A program made the translations under genes and the position numbers. From positions 100,087 through 140,126 of the forward strand of contig JAFYSJ010000002.1 in NCBI GenBank assembly GCA_017559445.1: DNA of 40,040 bases, given 5' to 3'. The stretch comes from Clostridia bacterium. GTDB lineage: Bacteria; Bacillota; Clostridia; RGIG7378. Below are positions 2,874 through 39,846 of the stretch, piece by piece; positions within the stretch are counted from its first letter, which is position 1; each line of letters starts with the position of its first letter. The notes under the pieces were generated by a model. The model worked only from the letters and a program-made list of their open reading frames with translations, made no database searches and was not told the DNA's origin.

Positions 2874-3141
2874 CTAGCAAGCTCCGCTTGCGGCTCACTA
2901 GCCGAAGGCGACCTACTAGCGCGATAGCGCGTATACTAGCAAGCTCCGCTTGCGGCTCACTAGCGAATGCAATGAGCGATTACTAGCGCAGCGGTTCACT
3001 AGCCGAAGGCGGTTCACTAGCCAAGGGCGGCTCACTAGAGTGCAACGCACTCGAATCACTAGCCGAAGGCGAATCACTAGGCGCAGCCGGATCGTTAGAA
3101 CCGCAGGTCTGGAACACTAGCACCGCTAGGTGCGGAAATCA
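2874..3141 (+). repeat. Mosaic CTAG mini-hairpin repeat array A (about 13 units)
   Basis: About 13 units of 16-25 bp, each beginning with CTAG (once TTAG), holding a short inverted repeat and ending in CGG or CGA plus 3-4 bases such as CTCA, TTCA or ATCA. Examples of cores are CAAGC-TCC-GCTTG (twice), GCC-GAA-GGC (several), GAGTGC-AAC-GCACTC, GGC-GCA-GCC and GCACC-GCTA-GGTGC. The last unit runs into the pyrB stop codon: its terminal TCA is the TGA at 3141-3139. This fills most of the 464-bp gap between pyrB and the permease. No open frame with coding character exists here. Confidence 0.9.
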
Positions 3142-4245
3142 TTCTGGCTTTCTATCGCAGTAGATACATCTGTATCCGTTCTCTGTCTTAAAGAATGCCT
3201 GTGGCAACTCCTGCTCTACACTTGTGATGCAACGACCACTTGCGCAGTGGAATCCATGCTCCTTAGCATTTACAACAGCCTCTTCGTATCTAGCAACATC
3301 GTCGCCGATTACGTCTGAATCTGCAACCTCAGGTGCCAAACCAAGCAATGTGAGAATCAATGCCATACGGATGAACTTACCATTAAGTACCTGCTGGAAG
3401 TAGCAAGCTCTAGGATCCTTGTCTACTGCAACAGAGATTTCGTTAACTCTTGGCAATGGATGCATGATAATCATGTCAGCCTTTGCGTGAGCAAGCTTAT
3501 CTGTGTTAAGGATGTAGCTATCCTTAAGACGGTTGTACTGCTCTACGTCAGCGAATCTCTCCTGCTGTACGCGTGTCATGTACAATACGTCAAGCTCTGG
3601 CAATACTTCCTCAAGAGAAGTTGTCTCAACATATGGAACTCCAGCCTCATCGAGCTCCTTGCGAAGACCAACTGGCATGCGAAGCTCATCTGGTGCAATA
3701 AACACAAACTTTACACCCTCGTAACGAGACATAGCAGACACAAGGGAATGTACTGTACGGCCATACTTAAGGTCTCCACAGCAACCAACAACCATGTTGT
3801 TAAGTCTGCCCTTCTGGCGAGAAATTGTGAGAAGGTCTGTCAAAGTCTGTGTTGGGTGGTTGTGACCACCGTCACCTGCGTTAATTACAGGAATGCTTGC
3901 ATTGAGAGATGCAACCATGGGAGCACCCTCCTTGGGATGTCTCATGGCAATAATGTCTGCAAAGCAAGAAATTACCTGCGCTGTATCTGCAACGCTCTCG
4001 CCCTTAGATGCGGAACTGCTGCTGGCAGAGCTGAAACCGATTACGTTTCCGCCGAGCTCCATCATAGCAGACTCAAAGCTAAGTCTTGTTCTTGTGGAAG
4101 GCTCAAAGAAAAGTGTAGCCAACTTTTTGCCGTGGCATGCAGATGCATATCTTTCGCCGTGGGCAATAATATCCTTTGCCAAGCTAATAAGTCTATCTAC
4201 CTCAGCAATGGAAAAATCTCTAATATCAATCAGATTCTTTTTCAT
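3139..4245 (-). CDS. pyrB: Aspartate carbamoyltransferase with fused PyrI-like zinc tail
   Basis: Catalyses condensation of carbamoyl phosphate with aspartate, the first committed step of pyrimidine synthesis. The catalytic core (about residues 1-303) has the carbamoyl-phosphate loop FFEPSTRTRLSFE (47-59) and MHPLPRVNEI near its end. At 368 aa the protein is about 60 residues longer than ordinary PyrB. The extra tail has Cys334-x4-Cys339-x20-Cys360-x2-Cys363, and the CITSVEQELPQAF and YRCIYC segments resemble the zinc domain of the regulatory chain PyrI. The nucleotide-binding domain of PyrI is absent, so the tail may mediate assembly rather than CTP/ATP control (inference). It is the last gene of the operon, 15 bp after pyrE, and no separate pyrI is visible in the window. 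The stop codon overlaps the repeat array. Confidence 0.95.
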   Translation of the reverse strand: MKKNLIDIRDFSIAEVDRLISLAKDIIAHGERYASACHGKKLATLFFEPSTRTRLSFESAMMELGGNVIGFSSASSSSASKGESVADTAQVISCFADIIAMRHPKEGAPMVASLNASIPVINAGDGGHNHPTQTLTDLLTISRQKGRLNNMVVGCCGDLKYGRTVHSLVSAMSRYEGVKFVFIAPDELRMPVGLRKELDEAGVPYVETTSLEEVLPELDVLYMTRVQQERFADVEQYNRLKDSYILNTDKLAHAKADMIIMHPLPRVNEISVAVDKDPRACYFQQVLNGKFIRMALILTLLGLAPEVADSDVIGDDVARYEEAVVNAKEHGFHCASGRCITSVEQELPQAFFKTENGYRCIYCDRKPE

Positions 4246-15324: not shown

Positions 15325-15391
15325 CTAGCACCTGCGGTGCGGTTACTAGCAAGCTCTGCTTGCGGCTCACTAGCCGAAGGCGGCTCACTAA
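15325..15391 (+). repeat. Mosaic CTAG mini-hairpin repeat array B (3 units)
   Basis: Three units with cores GCACC-TGC-GGTGC, CAAGC-TCT-GCTTG and GCC-GAA-GGC, each starting CTAG. The array ends CTCACTAA, touching the TAA stop (15394-15392) of the DUF4340 gene on the minus strand. Same orientation and style as arrays A and C. Confidence 0.88.
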
Positions 15392-16765
15392 TTATCTCAT
15401 TGCTCCTTCAACATCTCTTGCTGAAACCAAGATACCTGTGTACTCTCCGTTGTCAAACAAGTAGTACTCGTAAACCTTGTTATCCTCTGGGTTAACCTTT
15501 GCGATAAAGGAGAACTCTCTCTTTGTGCCATCCTTCTTTTCGAAAACAATGGTCAAAGCCTTTTCACCCTCAGGCTTTGCATCTGCATCGATATCAGATG
15601 GCTGCAATGCAGACAACATAGCTGTGTAATACTCAGAAACAGTATCACTATTAACAGGAATGTTGTTGATGAAAGAATCTGTCTCATCACCAACTGGCAA
15701 ATCAAGAACAGAGCTTCCACCCTTCCATGTGGATGTTACATATGCGTGATCTACAACCTTTTCTGTGTAAATAACGTATGCAACCAAGTCAACTGCCTTG
15801 TTATCCAAGAATTCCAAATCGGATTTGCTAAGAGTAACTACAAGGCCAGAGTCCACATCCATTGCATAAATAAACGCAGAAGAAGATGAGTCATTACCGA
15901 AGTAAATTGTTCTCTCCTTGCCGCTATCACATGTGTACTTAATAACGTATCTTGGATTTACAAGACCATACTCCTCAAGCTTTTCTTGAGAGTTGTCTGT
16001 GCCCAAATACTGAACAATCTGACAATCCTGCATGGAAACGAAGATAACGGAAAGTGAAGTTGCCTCAGTTTCAATCTTAATGGGAGCTGTCATTGTCCAT
16101 GTCAGGTCCTCATTCTTGGATGTCTCAATAACAACCTGGTTATTTCTCTCAAAGTGCAAGTAATTATAGTCTGTCTCTGGGAAGAAATCTTTGTTAACTA
16201 CGATGGAAATAACATTCATAGCAAAGTATGTTCCCAAATCCAATGGAGCAAGGTTAAATGTGCTGTTTCCATCCAATGTGTAAACTGCAGTTTCGCCTTC
16301 CTTCATAACGTAGAATGTTTCGCCAGTTTTTGTAAGGCCTCCCAAGAGGAATGTTTCCTCTCCACCCCTAAGCTTTAGAGTAACTCTAATTGGGTTGTTA
16401 AGACCATATACAGACTTATCTGAAACATTTTCTTCAATAAGCTTTGCTCCCTTAATATAGGATGCAAGCATTACGTAAACCTCAATAAGTCCAGACTCTG
16501 CATCGATATCCTCAGAGATAAGTTCCCAACCATTGTCTGTATTGCTAAACTCTACTACTCCGTAGGAGTTATCGATAACCAATCCATCTATGAAGTTATA
16601 GTTTGTAATGTTGATCAAAACCTTAGATGTGTCTTCTGCATCTGTAGTTTCTGGAGTACGAACCGCCTCGATGTAATCGATCAAAGCCTTTGCTCCAAAT
16701 ACAGCACCGGCCAAAACAACAGCTACTACAACTACAATTATAAGATTTCTAGTGCTTTTGCTCAT
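15392..16765 (-). CDS. DUF4340 domain membrane-anchored protein of a Gld-like ABC exporter
   Basis: A 457-aa protein with one N-terminal transmembrane helix (about residues 7-30) and a large extracytoplasmic region, matching the DUF4340 pattern of repeated beta-rich halves. Such proteins regularly accompany GldG-like ABC auxiliary proteins, probably as an extracellular part of the transporter. It is the last gene of a four-gene operon and its ATG is one base after the gldG-like stop, with the ribosome site inside that gene. The molecular function is unknown. The stop codon abuts repeat array B. Confidence 0.85.
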   Translation of the reverse strand: MSKSTRNLIIVVVVAVVLAGAVFGAKALIDYIEAVRTPETTDAEDTSKVLINITNYNFIDGLVIDNSYGVVEFSNTDNGWELISEDIDAESGLIEVYVMLASYIKGAKLIEENVSDKSVYGLNNPIRVTLKLRGGEETFLLGGLTKTGETFYVMKEGETAVYTLDGNSTFNLAPLDLGTYFAMNVISIVVNKDFFPETDYNYLHFERNNQVVIETSKNEDLTWTMTAPIKIETEATSLSVIFVSMQDCQIVQYLGTDNSQEKLEEYGLVNPRYVIKYTCDSGKERTIYFGNDSSSSAFIYAMDVDSGLVVTLSKSDLEFLDNKAVDLVAYVIYTEKVVDHAYVTSTWKGGSSVLDLPVGDETDSFINNIPVNSDTVSEYYTAMLSALQPSDIDADAKPEGEKALTIVFEKKDGTKREFSFIAKVNPEDNKVYEYYLFDNGEYTGILVSARDVEGAMR

Positions 16766-20753: not shown

Positions 20754-20766
20754 ATATTTTTTATTG

Positions 20767-20784
20767 CTTTGGAACAACCCAAAG
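20767..20784 (-). repeat. Conserved CTTTGG stem-loop next to array C
   Basis: CTTTGG and CCAAAG frame the loop GTTGTT on the minus strand. It follows GTAGCGGGCGAC, which itself follows array C read on the minus strand. The same order (array, AGTAGCGGGCGAC, CTTTGG stem with loop GTCGTT) is found on the plus strand at 28318-28363. Confidence 0.75.
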
Positions 20785-20795
20785 GTCGCCCGCTA

Positions 20796-21024
20796 CTAGC
20801 GCGATAGCGCGGCTCACTAGCGAGTGAAACGAGCGGATACTAGCGCAGCGGCCTACTAGCCGAAGGCGGATACTAGCGCAGCGGCCTACTAGCGCGATAG
20901 CGCGGCTCACTAGCGAGTGAAACGAGCGGATACTAGCGTAGCGGCCTACTAGCCGAAGGCGGCTCACTAGCGACTGAAACGAGCGGATACTAGCACAGCG
21001 GCCTACTAGCGCAGCGGTCTACTA
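20796..21024 (+). repeat. Mosaic CTAG mini-hairpin repeat array C (12 units)
   Basis: Twelve units, many repeated in the same order. Cores are GCGC-GATA-GCGC, a GAGTGAAACGAG type, GC-GCA-GC, GCC-GAA-GGC and GC-GTA-GC. A five-unit group is partly duplicated (20796 and about 20890). The last unit is followed by CTA, the TAG stop codon (21024-21022) of the methyltransferase gene. No coding potential is apparent, although one frame stays open because the units lack stops. Confidence 0.92.
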
Positions 21025-22206
21025 TCTCAGCACACTTTCCAGTGTCGGATGCACCTGCATTTCACCAACCAAAGTCTCGTACTCTCTCCTCTTCATTGGT
21101 GAGGCTGGCTCTCCTGTATATACGCACTTGAGCATTAAATTCTTAGGAGTATGCTCCATATCTACAAATTCAATAATATCCACCTTGTAACCACAGAGTT
21201 CCAAGATACGTGCTCTCAAAGCATCTGTCAGCAAGGCAGCAAATCTCTCCTTGAGCAAACCATACTTAAGAAGTGGTGCCAATGTTTCGTTCTGCACCTG
21301 GCCGTTAAGTTCGTGCTGACAGCAAGGCACTGACAAAATAACAGGAACCTGACCCTTAATAGCCTTTTCTAAAGCAAAGTCAGTTGCTGTGTCGCATGCA
21401 TGCAATGTGACAACCATGTCTGTGTTGGAATATGCCTCCTGGTACTCCTCAATGCTACCCACTTCAAAGTGGAGCTTGTCAAAACCACAGGCCTCAGCCA
21501 ACTTATTACAGTCATGGATTACCTGCTCCTTAAGGTCAAGGCCAACCATATCAACCTTGCGCTCCTTAATCTTGGTGAAATAATGGTACATGGCAAATGT
21601 CAAATAAGACTTACCGCAACCAAAGTCCACGATTCTCAGCACATCTCTATTTGGCAAGGAATAGTAGATGTCATCCACAATCTCCAAAAATCTGTTAATC
21701 TGCACGAACTTTCTGCGCATAGGTTGAAGGACTCTACCTGTCTCATCCATAACACCAAGCTGCTGCAAAAAGTCCAAGGGCTGACCCTCTGGAATAATAT
21801 AATTTTTGGTTCTATTATGTGCCACTGGCTCTGGCTGAGCCTTGGGTGCATTTTGTGCACCGCCGTGGTGAATAATCTTAACGCTAGATCTATCGGGCTT
21901 AGCCATTATCTGGTACAAACCCTCTGTTGTCTTAAGGTTAAGAGTGGAGAACATGCACTTGTCTAGCAAAGCCTCCAACTGGTCAGCAAAAACGCTGGCC
22001 ACGTCAGACACATTAATATGCTGAACCTGCTTTGTAAGTCTAACCTCAAACTGCCAATTAATGCGGCCCTTGATCTCAACTCTGCGCGCAGACACCTTGG
22101 TGATGCCTGTATTTATACCCTTAGTTGGAGTAACTGTAAGGCTAATCAAATTGCCATTTGCAACAAGCTTAGTCACCAGTTCTCTGAGTTTGATGTCCGT
22201 TGTCAT
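21022..22206 (-). CDS. Class I SAM-dependent methyltransferase
   Basis: A 394-aa protein with an N-terminal domain of unknown role (about 1-140) and a Rossmann methyltransferase domain. Motif I is RIVDFGCGKSYLTFAMYHYF, followed by the acidic VGLDLKE and the LHACDTATDFALEKAI and SVPCCQHEL motifs. The CDTATD and PCCQHEL signatures match a subgroup of rRNA/tRNA-type methyltransferases annotated only as SAM-dependent methyltransferase (related to the GSTCD family). The target is unknown. Its start overlaps the end of the next upstream gene by 4 bp (ATGA). The stop codon is supplied at the edge of array C. Confidence 0.85.
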   Translation of the reverse strand: MTTDIKLRELVTKLVANGNLISLTVTPTKGINTGITKVSARRVEIKGRINWQFEVRLTKQVQHINVSDVASVFADQLEALLDKCMFSTLNLKTTEGLYQIMAKPDRSSVKIIHHGGAQNAPKAQPEPVAHNRTKNYIIPEGQPLDFLQQLGVMDETGRVLQPMRRKFVQINRFLEIVDDIYYSLPNRDVLRIVDFGCGKSYLTFAMYHYFTKIKERKVDMVGLDLKEQVIHDCNKLAEACGFDKLHFEVGSIEEYQEAYSNTDMVVTLHACDTATDFALEKAIKGQVPVILSVPCCQHELNGQVQNETLAPLLKYGLLKERFAALLTDALRARILELCGYKVDIIEFVDMEHTPKNLMLKCVYTGEPASPMKRREYETLVGEMQVHPTLESVLR

Positions 22207-28153: not shown

Positions 28154-28262
28154 TGATCCGCTACGCTAGTAGGCCGCAAGCAAAGCTTGCTAGTAACCGC
28201 AACTGCGTTGCTAGTGAAACGAACGCGTTGCGTTCTAGTGAAATGACCACAGGAACATAGTG
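28154..28262 (-). repeat. Mosaic CTAG mini-hairpin repeat array D (4 clear units plus degenerate ones)
   Basis: Read on the minus strand the units have cores GAACGC-AAC-GCGTTC, GCAAC-GCA-GTTGC, CAAGC-TTT-GCTTG and GC-GTA-GC, each preceded by CTAG. A diverged unit beginning CTATG adjoins. It lies in the 408-bp intergenic gap between diverging genes, and its orientation is opposite to arrays A, B and C. Confidence 0.85.
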
Positions 28263-28267
28263 ACAAT

Positions 28268-28468
28268 CACTAAACACTGCAAAGCAAAGCTTTGCGAATC
28301 GTGCCTCCCGCGCTTCGGAAGTAGCGGGCGACTTTTGATTACTTTGGGTCGTTCCAAAGTAATAGATAAACACTAAACACTAATCCTTTACCACCGAAGA
28401 ATTTAATGTTATCTTCATTGTATGTATTTATATTATTAGTGAGCAGTAGGCTCAACACTAAACACTAA
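28268..28468 (+). repeat. Three dispersed CACTAAACACTAA-type short repeats
   Basis: CACTAAACACT recurs at 28268, 28371 and 28456, the last two continuing as CACTAAACACTAA. They are spaced 103 and 85 bp apart between the CPBP gene and the MBOAT gene. A further hairpin (GCAAAGC-AAA-GCTTTGC, about 28278-28294) lies between the first two. No gene is seen in this gap. The role is unknown. Confidence 0.6.
28318..28363 (+). repeat. AGTAGCGGGCGAC plus ATTACTTTGG stem-loop
   Basis: AGTAGCGGGCGAC is followed by a perfect 10-bp stem ATTACTTTGG/CCAAAGTAAT with loop GTCGTT (28338-28363). It matches the element next to array C in order, orientation and sequence, so arrays C and D belong to a larger composite element. 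Confidence 0.75.
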
Positions 28469-36157: not shown

Positions 36158-37762
36158 CTAAAGCTTTACACTACAAAGCTTTTCACCATCTGTATATTCG
36201 ACTATTACCTTGTTCTTTACATCGTAAATACGGGTAATTTTACGCTCTGTGCCCTGCATGTTCTCAAGTATCAGTTTTTGCTGTTCTTCGTCGTAATCTG
36301 TCGGATTGTCAGTTATTAACTGTGGCATTCCTACCATTCCACTTACGATGGCACAAGATTTTCTAGATGCATCAAAAAATCTAAGACCCTGGTTCATCAA
36401 GGTATATTCCTTAGGCGTATTTACCCATGCTCTACCGTTAAGCTGTCTTCTAAAAAGAGCACCTAAAAAAGACCTATCTGGTGTAAGGTAATCCACCAAG
36501 GATCTAATGGATCGGATTGCTGTCTTAGGTGTAACTGTGGCACCTGTGGAAATATGGCAATAATCCACCATTCCGAAGGCTGGCATAAGAGGTACATCCT
36601 CTGCCATAACAGGAATACCATCTGTAAGCTCCTTGAGTGTTTCCATTGCCTGGTACATGGAAGCGGCGCGGCTCTGTCCCTCTACAGCAACAAGACCTGC
36701 CATGTAAAGGTCACCTGCTACAATCATGTCGTAACCCCATTTGTTGACCACTGTGTCAATCAATCTACGGATATAGTCCTTAACGTCTGCACGAGATACG
36801 TCCAAGGCCACAAGGTTCACGTCCATTGGACTATTTACAATCTTATTATTTCTATCTCTCTTTATCCAATCCCTATGGTCAACTGCCAATTGGCTGCGAC
36901 GGTCGATGGAAAATGGGGATATCCACAATGCGGCCTTAAATCCCCTATCATGGATTCTCTTGGCCACCTGTGCCATGCCCTCTGGGAATTTGTATGGTGC
37001 TGGAGACCAATCTCCCTTGGCCATATTCCAACCCTCTGCAACCAAAACCATGTTATCCTGGCCTGTTATGGACTCCATGTTGTCCAAGGCTTCCTCTATT
37101 CCCAAGGCGTCCACGTGGTAACCCATGTTGTTTGTGCTAAATCCGCCCATTGGCTTAACATCCAGTTTAGGCAGCTTAAGATCATCAAACCACTGATCAA
37201 AAACATACTCCTCAGGTCCATCGTAAATTTTAATAGACATGAGTTTGTACTCACCTGCCTCAAGGCTAATACCCTCTACATCCTTAGAAATATAGATAGT
37301 GCTGTCTAATCCATCGTACTGGAAAATAGTATATCCTGTTCGTTCATCCAAAGAGGCAATGAGCCTGTAGTTATTACGGGATGTGCGGAAATAACAGTAG
37401 GAAAATCCCATGGGAGAACCGTTATGTATGTCATATGCACCAAAAAGCTTGGCTGCAGTACTTACTCTCAAGCGGCTTCTCAAGTTTGCCGGGATGGCCA
37501 AAAGCTTGTTGTCTCTGCTCGTCTCCATGCATGGTGAGTCTGAACGGAATCCATTCATGAAAAAACGCTCGTCTGTTTCACATATCCAGTGGAATGTCAT
37601 TGTAAAGGAAACAAGACGAATGGACTCCATTGGATTAATGGATACACTAATCTCGCCATTACGGTCTTGGACCTGCGCCTTAAGACCACTGTTCTTAAGG
37701 GCTCCGCTATACTGACGACCGTCCTTATGCTGATATGTGATTGTACATTCTGGTATATACAT
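36158..37762 (-). CDS. GH36-like (alpha-galactosidase family) protein with altered catalytic motifs
   Basis: A 534-aa protein with an N-terminal beta-sandwich (about 1-200) and a (beta/alpha)8 barrel resembling GH36/clan GH-D enzymes. Supporting blocks are GDWSPAPYKFPEGMAQVAKR, DRGFKAALWISPF and DHRDWIKRD. The catalytic positions differ. The segment normally read as W-G-F-D-x-x-K-x-D-F-L-Y is W-G-Y-D-M-I-V-A-G-D-L-Y, putting Gly350 where the nucleophile Asp is expected. The acid/base region, usually R-I-x-x-D, reads C-H-I-S-T-G (402-407). It may be a non-catalytic or mechanistically different relative. GGGAGC precedes ATG 37762. It is cytoplasmic (no signal peptide). Confidence 0.75.
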   Translation of the reverse strand: MYIPECTITYQHKDGRQYSGALKNSGLKAQVQDRNGEISVSINPMESIRLVSFTMTFHWICETDERFFMNGFRSDSPCMETSRDNKLLAIPANLRSRLRVSTAAKLFGAYDIHNGSPMGFSYCYFRTSRNNYRLIASLDERTGYTIFQYDGLDSTIYISKDVEGISLEAGEYKLMSIKIYDGPEEYVFDQWFDDLKLPKLDVKPMGGFSTNNMGYHVDALGIEEALDNMESITGQDNMVLVAEGWNMAKGDWSPAPYKFPEGMAQVAKRIHDRGFKAALWISPFSIDRRSQLAVDHRDWIKRDRNNKIVNSPMDVNLVALDVSRADVKDYIRRLIDTVVNKWGYDMIVAGDLYMAGLVAVEGQSRAASMYQAMETLKELTDGIPVMAEDVPLMPAFGMVDYCHISTGATVTPKTAIRSIRSLVDYLTPDRSFLGALFRRQLNGRAWVNTPKEYTLMNQGLRFFDASRKSCAIVSGMVGMPQLITDNPTDYDEEQQKLILENMQGTERKITRIYDVKNKVIVEYTDGEKLCSVKL

Positions 37763-37813: not shown

Positions 37814-38182
37814 ATGAGCCACGAGAAGCGCTGTCGCGCTAGTAACCGCACCGTTGGTGCTAGTGGGCCGCTGCGCTAGTAGCCGCACCGTTGGTGCTAG
37901 TAGGCCGCCTTCGGCTAGTGAGCCGCTGCGCTAGTAGGCCGCTGCGCTAGTAGCCGCACCGTTGGTGCTAGTATCCGCTGCGCTAGTGAACCGGCTACGC
38001 CTAATGAACCGCTGCGCTAGTAGCCGCAACTACGTTGCTAGTGGCCGCTCGTTTCACTCGCTAGTAGGCCGCCTTCGGCTAGTGAACCGCTGCGCTAGTA
38101 GCCGCACCGTTGGTGCTAGTATCCGCTCGTTTCACTCGCTAGTGAAACGGCTACGCCTAGTGAACCGCAACTGCGTTGCTAG
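37814..38182 (-). repeat. Mosaic CTAG mini-hairpin repeat array E (19 units)
   Basis: The largest array, about 370 bp, lies between the GH36-like gene and tRNA-Cys. Read on the minus strand its units include GC-GCA-GC, GCC-GAA-GGC, GCACC-AAC-GGTGC (five copies), GCAAC-GCA-GTTGC, GCAAC-GTA-GTTGC, GGC-GTA-GCC (two copies), GAGTGAAACGAG types and one GCGC-GACA-GCGC. Every unit is led by CTAG (one TTAG). A frame stays open through much of it but is not a gene. Confidence 0.93.
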
Positions 38183-38366: not shown

Positions 38367-38450
38367 AAATAAGCAACCCAAATGGGGTGCTTATTTTTTT
38401 GTCTTTCTATGATATACTCAAGATACAAATCTATATATTGGAAAGGCGGA
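38363..38450 (+). repeat. 88-bp duplicated terminator-promoter module, copy 1
   Basis: It begins with the last four bases of tRNA-Cys (TCCA), contains a terminator hairpin (AAATAAGCAACCC/GGGGTGCTTATTT then T7), an extended -10 promoter (TG-A-TATACT, 38410-38418) and the ribosome site GGCGG of the next gene. It differs from 39144-39231 at only two positions. Confidence 0.85.
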
Positions 38451-38456
38451 ATGTTT

Positions 38457-39125
38457 ATGAAGAAACTTCTTATATTGGTCATGTTATCCACCATATTGCT
38501 GTTTTCTTTTTGTGGATGTTGCTTGCTCTACGATTATGAACTTTATGCCATTGATTCCTTTAATATTGGATATACTAAATTATTAAAGGACGCTTATGTA
38601 GGTGATTATAATTGGGACGGAAGTGATGAGAGCAAAACCATTATCATTCCAGAAACCTATGGTAATTGCACTATCTCTGCTCTTGGAGGATATTCTGGAA
38701 GAGGTTATCCAAGTGCATTTCAAATAATTCCAACCGAAGATGCAAGAAATATACTTTGTCCAAATGCTACCGAATGGTCATATGTATCTAACACGAAAAA
38801 TATCGAGCCTAACTCTGTGCAATATTTAAGATTCAAAGTTCACATTAGCAAATATATTAGCGACATTAATGAGTTAAATGCTGGAGGAATTATTCTTGCA
38901 GAATTTATTGAAGGAGAAGAGACAAAAAACAACGTATATGTTTTGACCTGCTACGTTACATGTGATGAAGAAAATAAGCATTTTTACGCAAAGGACGGAA
39001 AACTTTATTTCAAAGAAAATGACATGCTTGTTGACGATATTTTTTATGAGGACTTTGTTTTAGAGCAACATAATGAGACGCATAAAGATGAACCTGTAGT
39101 TGCGGTTCCTTTTGCCAGAAAATGA
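38457..39125 (+). CDS. Putative lipoprotein, tandem paralogue 1
   Basis: A 222-aa secreted protein starting at ATG 38457 (GGCGG, 7-bp spacing); the frame extends upstream only through the terminator-promoter module. The N terminus MKKLLILVMLSTILLFSFCG is a lipoprotein signal with Cys around position 20. The mature part contains YNWDGSDESKTIIIPETYG and CTISALGGYSGRGYPSAF, echoing the IP..y.g..ITa.G pattern of BspA-type leucine-rich repeats. The function is unknown. It is paralogous to the next gene over its entire length, with the CDEENKHFYAKDGKLYFKEN block conserved. Confidence 0.75.
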   Translation: MKKLLILVMLSTILLFSFCGCCLLYDYELYAIDSFNIGYTKLLKDAYVGDYNWDGSDESKTIIIPETYGNCTISALGGYSGRGYPSAFQIIPTEDARNILCPNATEWSYVSNTKNIEPNSVQYLRFKVHISKYISDINELNAGGIILAEFIEGEETKNNVYVLTCYVTCDEENKHFYAKDGKLYFKENDMLVDDIFYEDFVLEQHNETHKDEPVVAVPFARK

Positions 39126-39143: not shown

Positions 39144-39231
39144 TCCAAAATAAGCAACCCAAATGGGTTGCTTATTTTTTTGTCTTTCTGTGATATACTC
39201 AAGATACAAATCTATATATTGGAAAGGCGGA
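39144..39231 (+). repeat. 88-bp duplicated terminator-promoter module, copy 2
   Basis: This is 86 of 88 bases identical to 38363-38450. It ends paralogue 1 transcription (AAATAAGCAACCC/GGGTTGCTTATTT, T7) and restarts it with an extended -10 (TATACT at 39194-39199) for paralogue 2. It even retains the tRNA-derived TCCA, indicating that the duplication began at the 3' end of the tRNA. Confidence 0.85.
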
Positions 39232-39237
39232 TTATTT

Positions 39238-39846
39238 ATGAAGAAACTTCTTGTTGCACTTATTTCAATTTTGCTACTTTTCTCACTATGTGGATGTTGC
39301 CTGTATTACGATAGCCGCGGCATTACAGAAAACTCTCTTGAGGTTTTCTACGCCCCAACAATTAAAGAAGCTTTTATTCATACATATTACTGGGACGGAA
39401 GTGATGAAGGCAAAACCATCGTCATACCAGAAACCTATGAGGGATGTACCATTACTGCCTTCGGTGGATACTATGGAAGAGGCGTTCCTTCTCCATTTCA
39501 CGTTGTTTTCACAGAAGAAGCTCAGGAGCTCTTACGCCCCGATGCCTTTCGATGGGATATGAACTATTTAGATAACATAAAAGATTACAATGTTGAATAT
39601 ATCCACTTTAATCTACACATTAGCCAATACATCGAAGAAATTCACGAGGTAAATTTTGATAAATACCACGTGGCAAGATACGGAATGGTCCCCATGGTAT
39701 ATGTAATCACCTTTAATGTGACATGTGACGAAAACAACAAAACATTCTATGCCAAGGACGGAAAACTGTATTACAGAGAAAACGATGCCCTGGTGGAAGA
39801 ATTCCCCTACAGTGACTTTGTTTTAGAAACACCAACTGAAGAATAA
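39238..39846 (+). CDS. Putative lipoprotein, tandem paralogue 2
   Basis: A 202-aa lipoprotein starting at ATG 39238 after GGCGG. The signal ends in the lipobox-like LCGC. The mature part has YYWDGSDEGKTIVIPETYEG and CTITAFGGYYGRGVPSPF, then CDENNKTFYAKDGKLYYREN near the end, mirroring paralogue 1. The C-terminal tail after LVEEFPYSDFVLE is shorter than in paralogue 1. The family function is not recognised. An exported, cell-surface role is inferred from the signal peptide. Confidence 0.75.
   Translation: MKKLLVALISILLLFSLCGCCLYYDSRGITENSLEVFYAPTIKEAFIHTYYWDGSDEGKTIVIPETYEGCTITAFGGYYGRGVPSPFHVVFTEEAQELLRPDAFRWDMNYLDNIKDYNVEYIHFNLHISQYIEEIHEVNFDKYHVARYGMVPMVYVITFNVTCDENNKTFYAKDGKLYYRENDALVEEFPYSDFVLETPTEE

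Follow-up and report, generated by a model that had tools for sequence, protein, structure and literature searches.

The window analyzed here, a stretch of 40,040 nucleotides, is the terminal part of a 140-kb contig in a MAG-like assembly (1.68 Mb in 40 contigs, 96% completeness) of an uncultured gut Clostridia species. We recovered in it all five arrays of small hairpins that a preliminary description had listed. Array 1 (2874..3141, plus strand) comprises 11 parsed units arranged head-to-tail, and its right end supplies the TGA stop codon of a PyrB-like gene on the minus strand (3139-4245). Array 2 (15325..15391, plus) has three units; a few bases separate its right-end CACT, at 15389, from the stop of a DUF4340 gene (15392-16765, minus). 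In array 3 (20796..21024, plus), which has 12 units including a repeated multi-unit block, the terminal CTA doubles as the TAG stop codon of a methyltransferase gene (21022-22206, minus). The four units of array 4 (28154..28262, minus) form a block with paralogous copies elsewhere in the genome. Array 5 (37814..38182, minus), with 18 units, lies between a melibiase-like gene (36158-37762, minus) and a tRNA-Cys (38293, plus); downstream of the latter two tandem paralogous lipoprotein-like genes with no Pfam match are found (38382-39125 and 39163-39846). The token finder hence arrives at a window total of 48 units (11+3+12+4+18), in keeping with the initial estimate of about 50, and a generic unit pattern (CTA, a perfect stem, a foot and ACT) yields 38 matches as against a mean of 1.1 (maximum 4) in 50 Markov-randomised windows.

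The arrays extend genome-wide beyond the window, and both their reality and this extent are solid. A search with the pattern CTAG-N-CGR-N-ACTAG recovered 301 forward and 201 reverse matches, compared to 3 and 11 for a reversed control. In the 1.60 Mb of unmasked sequence to which our counts apply (contigs C12 and C16, 68 kb, being left out), we identified 827 units, distributed over 91 arrays with a minimum of two units each, with a median span of 174 bp and a summed length of 17.1 kb, or 1.07% of the readable genome. Within an array the units all point the same way, and only three close array pairs occur, all in minus/plus order. Eight contigs (C9, C13, C19, C23, C27, C29, C36 and C39) end inside arrays, so that arrays break the assembly and array content is probably underestimated.

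The parsed unit takes the form CTA-[stem-loop-stem]-GR-N(1-3)-(C)ACT, with a stem of 2-6 bp. Every unit had initially been said to read CTAG, which does not hold, as 62 units of one common type read CTA-ACGAGC-TTT-GCTCGT, with a CTAA head, T as the last stem base and, consequently, an A-T pair at the fourth head base. Thus, the conserved unpaired head is CTA, and the fourth base of the supposed CTAG is the first stem base, which covaries with its partner. Since the hairpin includes this base, most stems start with G and end with C, and the CGG or CGA tail of the preliminary description resolves into the closing C of the stem followed by GR. About 11 stem families share this one frame across the readable genome. 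The short ones are GC-GNA-GC, GCC-GAA-GGC, GGC-GNA-GCC and GCGC-GNNA-GCGC; those with 5 bp are GCAAC-GNA-GTTGC, GCACC-AAC-GGTGC and GGACC-GAA-GGTCC; those with 6 bp are GCAAGC-TYY-GCTTGC, ACGAGC-TTT-GCTCGT, GAACGC-AAC-GCGTTC and GAGTGC-AAC-GCACTC; and a GA-type family reads GC-GA-GT-GAA-AC-GA-GC. The commonest core is GC-GNA-GC, with 207 tokens, and the H12 core is mostly GCGC-GNNA-GCGC.

The joint change of both arms, for which a statistical check had been suggested, is borne out, with perfect covariation in representative sets: the 15-nt hairpins are 100% paired, as against 76.9% with their 3' letters shuffled, and score 0.704 versus 0.249 for covariation (reached in 0 of 500 shuffles), while the 13-nt hairpins score 0.386 versus 0.093 (1 of 500 shuffles). 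In units of the type GC-GA-xx-GNA-yy-GA-GC, the inner pairs covary (GT/AC, AT/AT, AC/GT and GA/TC) around a constant, non-Watson-Crick GA/GA. We take the latter to be tandem sheared mismatches, which could form on the CTA strand and not on the other strand, where they would read UC/UC.

The loops are likewise strand-specific. On the CTA strand, 576 of 826 units have GNA (521) or GNNA (55) loops, compared to 21 such loops on the other strand, and all regular stem families close the loop with a C-G pair. Mini-hairpin DNAs whose loop is GNA or GNNA and that have two or more G-C pairs show extraordinary stability; for GCGAAGC, the Tm is 78 C (PMC4686876). Under the standard parameters for DNA folding, neither the 2-bp nor the GA-mismatch hairpins come out as stable, and their stability hence rests on such published measurements and general knowledge. 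From the concentration of these loops on one strand, their published stability, the antisense position of the CTA strand relative to docked genes and the lack of strand bias in wobble-type stem changes, we infer that selection acts on single-stranded DNA in its folded form. The explanation that we tentatively prefer, giving it not far short of an even chance, is that the arrays are species-specific, REP-like mobile mini-hairpins that are recognized and moved as folded single-stranded DNA.

The array family is species-specific. The comparison set our own genome (G000, a single strain) against a single congeneric genome (G001), in which a strict genome-wide pattern finds no unit. The congener keeps the gene order at 14 tested places; array 5 is absent from it, and both flanks of that array are syntenic there. 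The congener is too divergent (about 70%) to show empty sites at base level. Patterns with CTAG heads, which arrays with another head would escape, detected no comparable arrays in the congener or 289 others of a 291-genome sample of the class, nor in the others of 398 genomes from the phylum, a few of which have simple heptamer or coding repeats; runs of ACTAG-containing heptamers were seen in three of the phylum genomes (G345, G399 and G448). The GCAAC-GNA-GTTGC unit was matched neither in viral contigs nor in GTDB contigs, from among which its own genome may be left out, and the literature that we searched holds no account of such arrays. Given its absence from an otherwise syntenic congener, the origin, spread and mover of the family should be traceable over a short time.

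A profile search of the readable genomes for Y1_Tnp (PF01797) gave no match in our genome or the congener, while as a control it matched 36 of 60 genomes of the class. We detected no TnpB or reverse transcriptase (RVT_1) in our own genome, and a scan of its ORFs for HUH motifs returned 25 regex matches, mostly apparently spurious antisense frames and none plausible. The unit-flanked Y1 HUH transposase gene that had been proposed as a check was, therefore, not recovered. As candidates for a REPtron we tried 20 array-bracketed genes, including those for SmpB, pyruvate kinase, NFACT, HisKA and TspO and a few without a Pfam match, and found no recognizable transposase among them; a four-helix-bundle IVP gene (PF05635) next to an array was set aside because it is single-copy. 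As a potential source of the hairpins we considered RAYT-type loci of other Clostridia, and rejected them because 20 loci with long Y1 proteins carry no comparable hairpins.

These results bear most directly on the proposal that the arrays are true REPs moved by a RAYT, that is, a TnpA-REP-like Y1 enzyme with an altered motif preference, whose gene is either missing from the assembly or lost. A foot motif, a small hairpin and a CT site fit the logic of REPs: TnpA-REP enzymes cut at CT, chosen through the AG of the foot motif, and the enzyme of S. maltophilia still cuts a CTAG mutant REP, at a reduced level (PMC8266576). Y1 genes are common in the class; with assembly gaps, contigs ending in arrays and 68 kb outside the sequence read, such a gene could be hidden; and most units are intact (27 stems carry a single mismatch), so the activity may be recent. 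Against this stand the missing Y1 match in both genomes, the absence of transposases from the array-bracketed genes and the lack of comparable hairpins at the long-Y1 loci, and we deem the proposal unlikely. The suggestion that CTAG takes the place of GTAG is not supported, as the fourth base pairs in the stem and is not part of an unpaired REP tetranucleotide. Of the REP-like architecture earlier perceived, the extragenic palindromes with a short conserved foot motif stand, whereas the RAYT attribution is not supported. As the tag and orientation differ from those of REPs and no RAYT was found, we do not file the arrays as REPs; nevertheless, they may still work in a REP-like manner.

The organization of the units points to where their boundaries lie. 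The hairpin is tied mainly to its own 3' spacer (mutual information z of 8.7 over unique triples, versus 2.7 for the 5' spacer and 1.5 for the neighboring hairpin), which places the joint at ACT/A. An A precedes CTA in 84 of 87 arrays at the left flank (CTA itself being required by the finder), and 73 of 87 right ends have the foot and ACT, with A as the next base in 53 and another base in 20. Judged from sequence, the boundaries thus appear to agree with CACT^A junctions. The unit order is nearly random while hairpins stay with their 3' spacer, in line with the earlier idea of shuffling at the level of units. Among the paralogues of the array 4 block, one copy has a GCAAGC unit swapped for ACGAGC with unchanged spacers, and others differ by whole units. 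Across the genome, units are locally enriched (0.049 versus 0.011), repeats at lag 4 are enriched in the adjacent-unit analysis and 14 blocks of three units are common to separate loci as against 0.3 expected. Identical long hairpins are adjacent in only 2 of 216 cases versus 30 expected, a scarcity that slippage deletion or misfolding would explain. This avoidance is the opposite of what simple tandem duplication predicts, and the arrays, with their variable hairpins and few, short linkers, also lack the constant repeat and unique spacers of CRISPR; both exclusions in the preliminary description were, hence, sound.

The same patterns could be produced without a dedicated enzyme, through slippage, template switching and recombination via short CACTA homologies, with the paired arm changes arising as palindrome correction through intrastrand template switching. 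The local enrichment and shared three-unit blocks are compatible with this, the rarity of identical neighbors is what slippage deletion leaves, and runs of (CACTAAA)n share the CACTA motif. However, about 90 separate, clean-bounded sites require dispersal and not expansion alone; correction would yield a perfect inverted repeat, whereas the GA/GA mismatch is kept while the inner pairs covary; and the near-random order, with hairpins retained beside their 3' spacers, also speaks against it. We regard this scenario as rather unlikely.

The placement of the arrays is extragenic: only 2 of 91 lie inside ORFs, as called by a simple greedy script. Of 57 array 3' ends, 31 lie no more than 6 nt from a gene stop, compared to 2 of 40 array 5' ends (p=2e-7). 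The docked stops (TAG 16, TGA 8, TAA 7) are enriched in TAG and TGA relative to the background (267, 223 and 904, respectively), and the proteins of genes that carry an array are, for the most part, as long as their counterparts in the congener. Where a unit that ends in CACT meets an A, TAG is restored on the strand of the gene; this would account for both the docking and its orientation. A role for the host at gene 3' ends of the sort put forward for REPs, such as mRNA 3' stabilization, control of transcription or supercoiling, or a platform for a protein that binds hairpins, would suit this extragenic, stop-docked placement, but is quite improbable given that the loop and GA-mismatch rules apply to the CTA strand, antisense to the docked gene, that stem changes of the G-T type are as common as those of the A-C type (9 versus 10, with no strand bias), leading us to reject G-U wobble as an RNA signature, that the units have no T-tract, that the orthologous genes of the congener have no arrays and that an Rfam search gave no match for the arrays, recovering only tRNAs.

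Other elements are found in the vicinity of arrays. Many arrays adjoin a larger hairpin repeat (GTGCCTCCCGCGCTTCGGAAGTAGCGGGCGAC...TTTGGGTCGTTCCAAAGTAA) that is dispersed in many copies genome-wide (e.g. window positions 28290-28360 and 20765-20795); unlike the arrays, this repeat is shared with the congener, with related copies in G001 (L130 5700-6030 and L131 4800-4870). Runs of 7-nt repeats (CACTAAA, CACTCAA or CACCAAA) also occur beside arrays, for example in contigs C26, C22 and C3, and share the CACTA motif. Further, the genome's only PF05635 gene, a single-copy gene for a four-helix-bundle 23S-rRNA-intervening-sequence protein (L059 12782-13150, contig C24), is located between two arrays and ends within the first CACTAG of one of them.

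Returning to the preferred reading of mini-hairpins moved as folded single-stranded DNA, we posit that the mobile unit would be A-[hairpin]-GR-N(1-3)-(C)ACT, and that its mover would be a single-strand nuclease or strand-transferase cutting after CT in CACT^A. With CACT at its end and ACT before it, a unit would bring along the target of the next one, which would give rise to head-to-tail arrays. Insertion at CACT^A opposite a gene end would rebuild a TAG stop or supply a TGA, so that, in one orientation, the 3' ends of genes would be safe places to land. Identical neighbors would then be deleted and blocks copied through replication slippage and recombination between arrays. Some observations count against this explanation: the CTA strand is the GC-skew leading (G-rich) strand in only 34 of 90 arrays, which is opposite to the IS200/IS605 bias, though confounded with gene orientation; the fourth head base covaries with the stem and cannot be a fixed guide base; and our own genome has no Y1, TnpB, reverse transcriptase or HUH-motif ORF candidate. 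A more specific version, namely a RAYT-independent system in which an undescribed nuclease recognizes the GNA/GNNA loop and CTA foot of a single-stranded mini-hairpin unit of 15-25 nt and grows arrays unit by unit through the self-targeting CACT^A, we hold to be unlikely. In sum, we regard the arrays as a REP-like variant, for which a single-stranded-DNA mechanism acting at CACT^A is tentatively suggested.

If true, a simple loop rule would reveal the folding strand, and as about ten stem families share one frame, the arrays provide a ready-made structure-activity series for a protein reading them. They also bear on whether REP-like elements need RAYTs, a question already raised by the CGTC-tagged REPs. 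The latter are REP-like hairpins without a dedicated transposase (PMC3733652), but have another tag and occur in other taxa, and the literature searched does not describe them as shuffled head-to-tail arrays. A diversity-generating or other retroelement would require a reverse transcriptase, and none is present in our genome. The ends of IS200/IS605 elements resemble the arrays as read here, their hairpins being recognized in single strands, with a motif at the 5' foot and a cut close to it; in contrast, our genome has neither tnpA nor tnpB, and the arrays have no element body. The skew noted above, opposite in direction to the lagging-strand-template bias of those elements, is confounded with gene orientation. 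The closest known kind are the GTAG REP/BIME elements with their RAYTs, which are similarly short, extragenic, high-copy hairpins making up about 1% of the genome, mainly downstream of genes, with a 5'-foot motif, variable covarying stems and a CT beside the hairpin (PMC3733652, PMC8266576, PMC6006769). Their tag, however, is an unpaired GTAG or GTGG 0-2 nt 5' of the stem rather than CTA with a pairing G or A; BIMEs and REPINs are paired or alternating and not head-to-tail; and a RAYT gene flanked by the repeats has no transposase counterpart here. Stems as short as 2 bp, the GNA/GNNA loop rule and the interleaving of ten or more stem families in one array further set our arrays apart. Finally, the super-stable mini-hairpins d(GCGNAGC) and d(GCGNNAGC) are known from in vitro chemistry as synthetic oligonucleotides and aptamer add-ons, and the literature searched describes no genomic repeat family built from them. 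The GC-GNA-GC core of the arrays is exactly that molecule, and, if our reading is true, the arrays constitute a natural genomic family made according to the same rules as the most stable DNA mini-hairpins known.
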